Shown here one piece after another: positions 9,530 to 27,962 of a stretch of DNA of 51,118 nucleotides (within the stretch, counting starts at the first letter, position 1; each line of letters starts with the position of its first letter). Under the pieces are notes generated by a model. The model was not told where the DNA came from and made no database searches. It was given only the letters and a program-made list of their open reading frames with translations. The stretch covers positions 1 through 51,118 of the forward strand of contig CAMYLV010000026.1 of NCBI GenBank assembly GCA_947259495.1, written 5' to 3'. Source of the stretch: an uncultured Desulfobacterales bacterium (GTDB lineage Bacteria > Desulfobacterota > Desulfobacteria > Desulfobacterales > JAHEIW01). The position numbers and the translations under genes are program-made.

Positions 9530-10198
9530 GTCGGGTAGCGCAGGGGAATCTCACCCCCACGCCCCCACAGATCGGCACGTGACAGTCTCCCGTCATACCG
9601 CTCCTGCCAGCATTCCTCTTGAGACCTCACGGTCTCAAGCCTACACAAAAAGAACCCGGCTCCTCCCCCGCTTTAGCGGGGTTGACCTTCGCTTGTTGCG
9701 AACTGACTCATCCCCTTCGCTCCAGCCCCATTACAGAGCCTTCTACACTACTACTGGATGATCCGCCCCTGTGCTTCGCATCGGTACTCTCATTCTCGTG
9801 GGACCTCCACTTGAATTTCTCCCTTAACATCGAAACGACAGGTTCCCACGTTCCGCACAAAAGCCTGAATCAAGTTCATGCCATCTCTATGCCGGGCGCC
9901 GCCCAGACAATAAACAGGCTCCCTCTGGGCTTATCCTGCGAACCTCCAAGTATCCGCAGTTTTGACGCCATCTCAGATATTTCGACACCTCATCAATGGT
10001 TCGCTTGTGCTCATCTCCTTGATCCATACCTGACATGGTCTTCGCCATGCCTTTCCCTTAACGCTCACCACAACGGCTCTTTACCAATGCAGCTTAAGGT
10101 GGTTTGAAGCCTGCTCCTGTAAGCCGACTCCGAGGGGCCTTCCCTCATCTTCCGTGAAGTTACGCACACTTTATATTAAAAGTGCGCTCGTGGCGCAC
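9530..10198 (-). mobile_element. ORF-less group II intron (complete ribozyme, no intron-encoded protein)
   Basis: Read on the minus strand it starts GTGCGCC at 10198 and ends CTACCCGAC at 9530, the classic GUGYG...AY borders. Domain V lies at about 9569-9603, beginning GAGCGGTATGAC and continuing with GTCACGTGCCGAT, with the AGC triad; domain VI fills 9531-9568. A loop at 9944-9949 carries TTGGAG on the minus strand, closed by a CTGCG/CGCAG stem; this exactly complements the six exon bases CTCCAA just upstream, so it is EBS1 pairing with IBS1. Domain IV, where the reverse transcriptase gene normally sits, is only a small hairpin (9618-9639). The borders are confirmed by uninterrupted copies of the host repeat at 16183-16195 and 18304-18316. 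It would need a maturase supplied from elsewhere. Confidence 0.88.
9569..9603 (-). ncRNA. Group II intron domain V (catalytic hairpin)
   Basis: The 34-35 nt hairpin has the conserved AGC start, a GAGA-type terminal loop and the CACGT segment with the two-nucleotide bulge region. It is followed by the domain VI stem and the intron end at 9530. Confidence 0.8.
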
Positions 10199-15006: not shown

Positions 15007-15657
15007 TCACCCCGAGATCTCTCTAAGTGCGGTCAAAGTATCTCCGGGCTCCGGCCGCTCTGTGTAATCTGGATTGATCTCAGCATAACGGATAATGGAA
15101 TCTTGGTCTATTATCAGACGGGCAGGCATCGGCAGCATCCAGGAATCATCACCGTTGTGTTCGTCTACCTTCAGCCCAAACTGTCTGTATACCTTTATCA
15201 GGTCGTTAGGCATCTGGTATTTGATACCGTACTTTTCAGCTGTTTGATTTCCCGGATCGCTCAAAATATCGAAGAACAGGTTTTTTTCATTTTTCATGGC
15301 CTTATTGTATGTGACCATTTGGGGAGAAACCGCAAGCATAACGGCACCTTTTTCTTTAAACTGCGCAGCTACTTCTCCAAGAGCTTCCAGCTCCAGACTG
15401 CAGTAAGGTCACCAATTGCCACGGTAAAAGGTCAGCACAACAGGACCATCACCTAAAAGTGAACTCAAGCTCACATCCTGCCCCTCTGTATCTTTTAAGG
15501 TAAAATCGGGAGCTTTATCGCCCACTTTGACTACGTGATCCATAATGCCAGAATTTTTCAGATCATCCGTAGCCCGATGCATGACCTCTTGGGCATCTGG
15601 GGATGCTTTGGTTTTAAAGCTTTCTTTTAGTTTATCGAGTTTATCTTTTAAGCTCAT
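15007..15657 (-). CDS. Selenocysteine-containing peroxiredoxin-like protein (AhpC/TSA family)
   Basis: A 216-residue thiol peroxidase read through one in-frame UGA (15409-15411, codon 83). Upstream and downstream parts are in the same frame and together form one AhpC/TSA domain: KAPDFTLKD, then FYRGNW-UGA-PYCSLELEAL, then the C-terminal half with IIDQDSIIRYAEINPDYTERP. In homologues the UGA position is the peroxidatic Cys of FYRGNWCPYC, so the product is predicted to be a U-x-x-C enzyme reducing peroxides. A hairpin starts 17 bases after the UGA (see 15380-15394). GAGGAGGT precedes the ATG at 15657. Selenocysteine forms of this family are known in Desulfobacterota. The alternative, a nonsense mutation, would have to hit exactly this codon by chance. 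Confidence 0.88.
15380..15394 (-). promoter_or_regulatory. Candidate bacterial SECIS hairpin of the selenoperoxiredoxin
   Basis: Just after the UGA the mRNA can fold GAGCT-GGA-AGCTC, extended by one G-U pair. The apical GGA lies at bases 24-26 counting the U of UGA as 1, within the usual window for a SelB-binding element and carrying the expected loop guanines. The stem is short, so a computed fold is desirable. Confidence 0.6.
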
Positions 15658-16232
15658 ATTGATACCTCCTCTGTTACAGATGTCGTTGCGATACCTTTTG
15701 ATTTTATCTTATGAGAAAACACTTAAATCAAATTAATGCATAAAATCCAGAATACAAACTCGATATACTTTTATAAAGAGTCAATTCAGAATACTTCGCT
15801 AATATTGCAAACCCCACCAGGCAGCTTACCGCAGGGAATAGTTGCAAGCGGAGAATTTTTGTGATGCAAAAAATTTTGCAATATATAGACTTTGGTATCT
15901 AAGTGGGGAAATTTAGGTTGTCTGAAAATAAAATAGAGATGAAATCGGATCTAATGTGTCTTAGACATAGCAATCTCCAATTAGCCAACTTACGGAAAGG
16001 TTATGCTAATCTGAAAAAAATCGGCTACCCAAATTTGATACCTGCATAGCCGGAATCTAAAATTCAGGCAAAGTGTGGGATGCGTAATCTAATATGAACT
16101 CTTGGATAGGAACGAAAACGGCGGAATCATCACCTGAGATATAATATGAATATCGCAAGTCTTTCGGAGGTTCAAAACCTTAGATATGTTGGAGATATCA
16201 ACGGTTTCAAGGAATGATTTTATAAAAAATCA
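15658..16232. other. Intergenic region with R1 repeat copy B
   Basis: No gene. The selenoperoxiredoxin promoter is expected near 15690-15730 (TTGATT, 17 bases, GATAAA on the minus strand is a weak candidate). The R1 repeat fills 16041-16197. Confidence 0.5.
16041..16197. repeat. Dispersed repeat family R1, copy B (uninterrupted)
   Basis: Full-length copy of the repeat that is split by the group II intron at 9530-10198. It carries the unoccupied site GATATG/TTGGAGA at 16183-16195. Confidence 0.75.
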
Positions 16233-27107: not shown

Positions 27108-27210
27108 TATAGTGGTTATCAAAAAAACGTTCCGATATTTAAACGTTTTTTTCTACAACCACTTATGTCCCACTTCCGTATATCTGAACACTATTATGGA
27201 GAACGGTGTA
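27108..27210. repeat. Palindromic miniature repeat M1, single copy
   Basis: A ~103-bp unit starting TATAGTGGTTATC with a near-perfect palindrome (GTGGTT...AAAAAAACGTT / AACGTTTTTTT...AACCAC) and ending in GGAGAACGGTGTA. The same family occurs as a nested pair at 50647-50848. Its right end overlaps the 3' end of the selenothioredoxin gene and provides that gene's last codons and stop. Confidence 0.75.
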
Positions 27211-27874
27211 ACAGCGAATTCTTTTGTGAAAGCAACGTTTCGATCAGTGCAACTGCCGGTTTCACATCAATGTGGAAATTATTATAAACGACTCTTCCTG
27301 ACGTATCGATGATGACGGTCCAGGGAGTGCCACCTGAGCGGTAGTTTCGCATGATCGCCGGTACGTCATGCGTCTGATGATTTCCGGCCGCATGCGCCAT
27401 GGGAATCTTCAGTTCATATTTTAGCTGGTTTTTGCGAAGTTTGTCTTCGGTATTGATACGGTAACCTTCAAATACGGTTTGAATCCCCACAAACACAACA
27501 TCATCGACATCTTCAAATGTCTGCGTGAGCTTCTTGAGGGTTGGAAACCCAACCCTTTGACAGCCCGGTCACCAGTCCTGAAAAAAATAAAGATAAACGA
27601 TCTTGCCACGGTAGTCGCTGAGCCTGATTGAGTCGGTCTTTTTGCCATTGCCATCAATCCAGTTGGAAAGATTCAGCTCCGGAGCCATCTGACCCAGTAT
27701 GCCGTATGGGGTGCCGGCCGATGCGGTTGGCATTTTAAAAGGGGTATTTAAATTAAAAAAGCCAACGAACAAAAACAATATCACGCCCGCCAGGAGTAGG
27801 GCTGTAAAAATTGCATATCGAGCTGTGATTGGCTTATTCAGTATCATTGGATGCGCCTCAGCTTTTTCAGTCAA
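27194..27874 (-). CDS. Membrane-anchored selenocysteine thioredoxin-like (TlpA-type) protein
   Basis: A 226-residue protein read through one in-frame UGA (27569-27571, codon 102). Residues about 19-42 form an N-terminal membrane anchor. The thioredoxin-fold domain then runs MAPELNLSNWIDGN..., YLYFFQDW-UGA-PGCQRVGFPTLKKL, and, in the same frame beyond the UGA, VVFVGIQTVFEGY and GGTPWTVIIDTSGRVVYN with the cis-Pro loop (GTPW). Homologues have WCPGC at the UGA position, so U-P-G-C replaces the catalytic C-P-G-C. An 8-bp perfect hairpin starts 15 bases after the UGA start (27537-27556). The start codon is a TTG at 27874; an ATG nine codons later, with GAGG upstream, is equally likely. The final five codons come from the M1 repeat. 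Confidence 0.88.
27537..27556 (-). promoter_or_regulatory. Candidate bacterial SECIS hairpin of the selenothioredoxin
   Basis: AGGGTTGG-GTTT-CCAACCCT: a perfect 8-bp stem with a four-base loop that starts with GU, typical of SelB-binding loops. The loop starts at base 24 counting the U of UGA as 1, exactly the same position as in the peroxiredoxin gene. Confidence 0.8.
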
Positions 27875-27962
27875 ACCACATGTCTGCGCACATCATCAGG
27901 TTTTCACACGCTATTATCGCAGAAGACTGGCGGCTCTAAAGTAGGAAAAAAGGGCCTGTGCA

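Follow-up and report, generated by a model that had tools for sequence, protein, structure and literature searches.

Does the UGA that interrupts an AhpC/TSA reading frame in an uncultured Desulfobacterales bacterium stand for selenocysteine (Sec), and, if so, what would Sec do at that point of a peroxiredoxin-like protein? We addressed both questions for a gene in a stretch of 51,118 nucleotides, called the window here. An earlier note had described the locus as a likely selenoprotein and as a peroxiredoxin with UGA at the peroxidatic cysteine. We conclude that the gene is very probably an intact selenoprotein gene in which UGA is read as Sec in vivo, because the genome holds the Sec machinery, UGA and Cys codons are conserved at the site, the codons of a downstream hairpin are constrained, and the gene is whole. 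The first half of the earlier description is thus supported by the machinery, by the conservation of Sec or Cys, and by the constraint on the hairpin; the second half had to be changed in part, as described below.

Gene and reading frame

The earlier note gave no strand; the gene lies on the minus strand, and the plus strand of 15007-15657 has several stops. The features of the locus are as follows:

15007-15657, minus strand: gene of a UxxC protein with a peroxiredoxin fold, very probably a selenoprotein, 216 amino acids with U83 (from the frame, PF00578, and homologues)
15665-15670, minus strand: Shine-Dalgarno-like AGGAGG, 7 nt before the ATG (read directly from the sequence)
15657-15655, minus strand: ATG start codon (frame reading)
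15409-15411, minus strand: in-frame UGA, very probably the Sec codon, residue 83 in FYRGNW-U-PYC (from UGA/Cys conservation across loci)
15400-15402, minus strand: codon of C86, the partner Cys of UxxC (from profile alignment to peroxiredoxins)
15380-15394, minus strand: candidate bacterial SECIS hairpin, GGAGCU-GGA-AGCUCU, with the GGA loop at 15388-15386 (from a published model and wobble fixation)
15009-15007, minus strand: terminal stop codon, TGA (frame reading)

The UGA at 15409-15411 was the sole in-frame stop between the ATG and the terminal TGA, and the readthrough product contained U at position 83 alone, in the context LTFYRGNW-U83-PY-C86-SLELEAL. The 133 codons past the UGA were free of stops, a length that stayed open in 3 of 20,000 base shuffles of the same stretch. 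The AhpC-TSA model PF00578 matched the readthrough protein in one stretch (residues 45-191, 114.4 bits, cut-off of 26). The locus is therefore, as the earlier note had claimed, a continuous AhpC/TSA frame broken once by UGA.

Under translation table 11, the locus splits into two separate ORFs, at 15409-15657 (82 amino acids) and 15007-15339 (110 amino acids), as would also be seen if a nonsense mutation had truncated the gene and no recoding took place. We compared substitution rates before and after the UGA in 14 pairs of genes. In 11 pairs, dN/dS was 0.09-0.32 before the UGA and 0.08-0.23 after it; full or partial saturation affected the other three, including the two pairs that contain the window gene, and one pair outside the 11 (L030-L038) had a dN/dS of 0.24 after the UGA. 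Purifying selection acts on the sequence past the UGA, so the downstream half is undamaged, as had been noted. This constraint on the second half, the UGA that a paralogue in this genome shares, and the codons found in relatives (see below) make a pseudogene very improbable.

Other features were seen in the window and the genome. A second AhpC-TSA/thioredoxin-like gene lies at 27194-27907 on the minus strand of the window, with a UGA at 27571-27569 in the motif DW-U-PGC; it is likely a second selenoprotein gene, probably with its ATG at 27847. A hairpin, AGGGUUGG-GUUU-CCAACCCU, lies past this UGA and has a folding z of -1.39. Another AhpC-TSA-like gene (L008, G000:C25:44948-45322) adjoins two other PF00578 genes and carries UGA in the motif MY-U-PFC, with a perfect downstream hairpin, GAGGGA-GGC-UCCCUC, recognized by eye. 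Two pieces of group II introns were also found in the window:

9530-9605, minus strand: group II intron piece (Rfam RF00029, 53.9 bits)
10028-10146, minus strand: group II intron piece (Rfam RF01999, 119.9 bits)

The codon at site 83 in relatives

Next, we looked at which codon relatives of the gene carry at site 83. Across 151 loci, drawn from a class search that included the window gene and from a motif-guided scan, with some genes counted in both searches, the codon was TGA in 99, TGC in 31, TGT in 20 (51 Cys codons in all), TAA in 1, and any other in none. Sec or Cys was thus encoded at every locus read except the one with TAA. Relatives with a random residue at the site and a degraded downstream half, which had been named as grounds for rejecting a selenoprotein, were looked for and did not occur.

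The class search was not guided by the motif and matched 69 of 389 genomes at E <= 1e-20, in 78 rows. After exclusion of five partial rows (two of G365 and those of G014, G259, and G325), the 73 near-full-length rows held exactly one TGA in 67 cases, none in 5, and TAA in 1. At the codon level, 72 of the 73 were read, including the window gene and leaving out a second copy in G102, and gave 67 TGA, 4 Cys, and 1 TAA. The motif-guided scan of named genome contigs covered at least 79 loci (32 TGA and 47 Cys); it took the best 80 of 87 relatives by motif patterns, and its Sec/Cys ratio is therefore biased. A phylum search matched 29 of 395 genomes, in 32 rows, of which 5 were common to the class search and 29 held exactly one TGA, the new rows being counted by TGA number and not by codon position. 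The 389 and 395 genomes are samples from larger groups. Within the bacterium's own family, a homologue was present in 5 of 6 genomes, its own included, with exactly one TGA per row; G002, of the same family, had no homologue at the search threshold. The bacterium's own genome also encodes a paralogue (L004/L035, G000:C1:68873-69514) with 51-52% identity, the same UGA, and the same SECIS core.

The Sec forms were labeled as coming from named Desulfoluna strains and from contigs of Desulfobacterales, Betaproteobacteria, Rokuibacteriota, Nitrospirota, and Pirellulaceae; most Sec carriers are metagenome bins, whose taxon labels may be wrong. An error of sequencing or assembly might be thought of in a draft genome of 69 contigs, and yet the same UGA recurs in independent genomes of several phyla and in three named Desulfoluna strains (L084, L087, and L139), which leaves such an error with a negligible probability. 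A tree of 131 genes, built after masking residue 83, required 5 changes of the Sec/Cys label (bootstrap range, 4-6; mean after shuffling, 40.7). Six Sec forms (L080, L082, L083, and L086; L091 and L099) sit among Desulfobacterales genes on this tree while their contigs are labeled Betaproteobacteria or unnamed bacterium, and Pirellulaceae; their placement may reflect either transfer between phyla or mislabeled bins.

The TAA belongs to L162, in genome G242. It stands exactly at the Sec codon in a frame that is otherwise open, the stem of the SECIS has a C-A mismatch, and the sister gene, L161, is an ordinary UGA gene; the TAA is either recent decay or a sequence error. The TAA speaks for truncation, but it is one locus against the UGA of 99 of the 151 loci and the Cys of 51.

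Sec machinery and the downstream hairpin

We searched the 4.44-Mb genome (69 contigs; completeness, 97.27%) for the genes needed to insert Sec and found all four, selA, selB, selC, and selD, so that the absence of the machinery, which would have spoken against a selenoprotein, did not occur. One tRNA-Sec was above its cut-off (75.2 bits; anticodon tca by ARAGORN). SelB scored 358.3 bits over positions 1-578 of 581, SelA 524.1 bits, and SelD 358.7 bits. The SelD gene (L026, G000:C2:224486-225409) has one in-frame UGA in the context TCGUAAK, and SelD is likely itself a selenoprotein. Further search rows for tRNA-Sec, SelB, and SelD all fell below the cut-offs and presumably stem from other tRNAs and GTPases and from SelD-like proteins. 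Among the 68 homologue-bearing genomes, many of them incomplete drafts, 2 (G108 and G211) yielded no SelA and 56 had a tRNA-Sec above the cut-off; the tRNA-Sec search of G291 gave no match. As for the Cys forms, loss of the Sec machinery as their cause was ruled out for four order-level genomes (G102, G150, G173, and G232), all of which had SelA and a tRNA-Sec above the cut-off.

A hairpin with a GGA loop had been proposed as the SECIS element within 15360-15411. Counted from the UGA, the hairpin starts after 14 nt and its GGA loop after 20 nt. The bacterial SECIS model, as given in the accessible part of PMC13188914, has a loop of 3-9 nt with a G within its first two bases, a stem of 4-16 bp, a spacing of 16-37 nt, and a minimum free energy (MFE) of <= -7.5. 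The window hairpin agrees with this model, with a 3-nt loop that begins with GG, a 6-bp stem including a terminal G-U pair, and a spacing of 20 nt; the 39-nt stretch that contains it had an MFE of -8.3 kcal/mol. Its folding energy alone was ordinary when compared with shuffles (z = 0.35). RNAalifold, applied to the 77 of 79 Sec genes with distinct 48-nt stretches, did not return the hairpin as a consensus and gave two weak pairs only, and a single compensatory change in the stem (C-G to U-A) was seen, in L057 only.

The strongest sign of a SECIS element was synonymous codon choice, which hardly varies among Sec genes but does among Cys genes. For these statistics, identical matched genes were merged, which reduced the 151 loci to 131 (79 Sec and 51 Cys among the distinct genes), and expected fractions were taken from the remainder of the same genes. 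The codon of E89 was GAG in 78 of 79 Sec genes (expected, 0.38) and in 4 of 16 Cys genes (expected, 0.29). That of L90 was CTG in 78 of 79 Sec genes (expected, 0.39), compared with 13 of 49 Cys genes (expected, 0.21), and that of A92 was GCT in 69 of the 74 Sec genes with Ala (expected, 0.12), compared with 16 of 44 Cys genes (expected, 0.26). The codon of L88 was also biased in Sec genes (CTG in 43 of 54; expected, 0.39), and other neighbors showed little bias. Binomial P values were as low as 1.6e-57, which is overstated, as the kinship of the genes was ignored. A hairpin with a spacing of 18-23 and a G at loop base 1 or 2 was present in 78 of 79 Sec genes and 12 of 51 Cys genes; with a spacing of 16-37 and an MFE of <= -7.5, the counts were 62 of 79 and 7 of 51. 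The full model, as coded here, was thus failed by 17 of the 79 Sec genes and passed by 7 of the 51 Cys genes. These results indicate that the proposed SECIS is supported by conservation at the codon level. Four loci (L166, L173, L175, and L178) apparently carry, by eye, another SECIS, CUGC-GGUCNUU-GCAG instead of GAGC-UGGAN-GCUC, with a loop that begins 22 nt past the UGA.

The same data bear on whether another tRNA might decode the UGA as Trp or Cys, through an altered code or a leaky stop. Readthrough alone would yield the full frame. Against it, the gene's own terminal stop is TGA, the genome has a complete Sec system, Cys and Sec alternate at the site, and the downstream codon constraint is found in UGA genes and is absent from Cys genes; we regard decoding as Trp or Cys as very improbable. 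Under the Sec reading, the hairpin 20 nt past the UGA would direct SelB and Sec-tRNA-Sec to decode the codon at 15409-15411.

U83, C86, and comparison with known families

To place U83 within the fold, we aligned a profile of 38 chosen sequences (alignment A2) to proteins of known structure. Against 2ywn, FYRGnWCPYC fell on FYPAAFTQVC, which sets residue 83 opposite Thr and C86 opposite the PxxxTxxC Cys; the register was the same against 5epf and against 2cx3, where residue 83 faces Ser. Against the ResA protein 3c71, residues 83-86 fell on CPHC, with U83 on the first Cys of CxxC. The catalytic motif PxxxTxxC/U is not present in RGNWUPYC, which has R79 for P and U83 for T and keeps the Cys at C86. 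As judged from these alignments, the peroxidatic position is C86, not U83. In cd02970 proteins, the peroxidatic site is occupied by the second Cys of a CxxC motif, an arrangement consistent with that of the window protein. Of the earlier description as a peroxiredoxin with UGA at the peroxidatic cysteine, the fold therefore stands, the position moves to C86, and the activity is doubtful.

The predicted structure had a pLDDT of 95.5 and a pTM of 0.92. In a fold comparison of model residues 41/42 to 216, the protein was close to Bcp4 (3hjp; Z 22.3, rmsd 1.7, 157 aligned) and AhpE (4x0x; Z 22.2, rmsd 1.4, 152 aligned). Foldseek placed Bcp4 first and the ResA-type structures 4nmu and 3c71 at ranks 14, 33, 43, and 49 among the 50 matches listed. 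Fold and motif thus indicate different relatives.

We consider two activities. In the one ranked first, the product, probably cytosolic, would have a two-helix N-terminal extension before the peroxiredoxin fold and a thioredoxin-type U83-P-Y-C86 at the start of a helix. The U83 selenolate would attack an oxidized substrate, a disulfide rather than a peroxide; C86 would resolve the intermediate through an intramolecular U83-C86 selenenylsulfide; and a donor such as thioredoxin would then reduce it again. We think a disulfide the more likely substrate and thiol-disulfide exchange the somewhat favored chemistry. Ranked second is a true peroxidase, with U83 (or C86) as the peroxide-reducing residue and the other as the resolving one. 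The fold is nearest the AhpE and Bcp peroxiredoxins, above ResA, C86 is at the peroxidatic position, and R201, invariant in 38 of 38 sequences of A2, could replace the Arg of peroxiredoxins. The Pro and Thr of PxxxTxxC, however, are replaced by R79 and U83, and P178 apparently occupies the position of the Arg. P178 faces the Arg preceding AVFVID (2ywn) or AVFIVK (2cx3), which we take to be the catalytic Arg, in weak second stretches of insecure register (8.0 and 2.5 bits), and it faces a Pro of PLPTTF in ResA, which we take to be the cis-Pro, in an equally insecure stretch of 2.1 bits. We think a peroxidase the less probable of the two. The neighborhood gave no clue to the substrate, as no cluster among 175 neighboring ORFs at 34 loci recurred at more than 3 of them; of the seven clusters found at 3 loci, three came from the three Desulfoluna loci.

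Whichever its substrate, Sec at a thioredoxin-type and not a peroxidatic position would separate fold from activity in this group of peroxiredoxin-like proteins. Sec genes with a common SECIS core, next to Cys relatives mostly without it, make a useful test bed for the exchange of Sec and Cys and for the sequence rules of SECIS elements. Genes of this type may be truncated in public annotation, because the standard code gives two ORFs and, among the NCBIfam models listed for the window protein, none reaches its own cut-off.

We then compared the protein with known families. PrxU, the Sec peroxiredoxin with PxxxTxxU (NF040737), has the same fold and also has Sec at its active site; the Sec of PrxU is at the peroxidatic position, whereas that of the window protein lies three residues earlier, and the window protein scored 41.2 bits, below the cut-off of 270. 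The SelL-related model NF040769 matched 37 of the 38 A2 members at E <= 0.001, and the window protein scored 41.4 bits (cut-off, 120). ResA-type thiol-disulfide oxidoreductases have their CxxC where the window protein has UxxC, but, by eye, the window protein has no hydrophobic N-terminal stretch, Bcp and AhpE rank first in the fold comparison, and the score against NF002854 was 57.9 bits (cut-off, 170). The 38 A2 members matched 18 families in all, which were general or other redox models, with a WAxxUGC model in 9 members; family cut-offs were compared for the first A2 member only. A search of a plasmid collection gave one short match, 71 bases in a Listeria record.

The accessible parts of several papers list proteins that resemble this one. 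Prx-like selenoproteins in which UXXC takes the place of TXXU were described in PMC1088965, a Prx-like 1 group with pfam00578 and UxxC (225 sequences) in PMC2398784, and Prx-like thiol:disulfide oxidoreductases with PF00578 and UxxC/UxxU in PMC9312934 and PMC13188914. The accessible text of PMC1794560 lists such an oxidoreductase in Deltaproteobacteria; the genera listed for Deltaproteobacteria include Desulfotalea, Syntrophus, and Geobacter. A table in PMC13188914 also includes a member of the cd02970 peroxiredoxin-like family with UxxS. Both that member and the window protein are peroxiredoxin-like and have Sec first in a four-residue motif, UxxS in the former and UxxC in the latter. We found no biochemical study of the Prx-like UxxC group in the literature searched, which lacked most subscription journals.

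On the evidence of domain and motif, the window protein is best read as a peroxiredoxin-fold UxxC selenoprotein of the Prx-like kind listed since 2005-2006. Like the Prx-like thiol:disulfide oxidoreductases in the accessible descriptions, it combines PF00578 with UxxC, here U83-P-Y-C86; the likeness of the FYRGxWUPYC group to these proteins was drawn from domain and motif and not from the sequence of the representative WP_010940744.1. Tentatively, the FYRGxWUPYC proteins may form a distinct subfamily without a dedicated NCBIfam model, encoding Sec mainly in Desulfobacterales and their class and also in other phyla, and sharing a SECIS core, GAGC-UGGAN-GCUC, within the codons of the conserved ELEAL segment. 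Such a subfamily would consist of selenium-dependent disulfide reductases on a peroxiredoxin fold, with the peroxidase site converted to a thioredoxin site.
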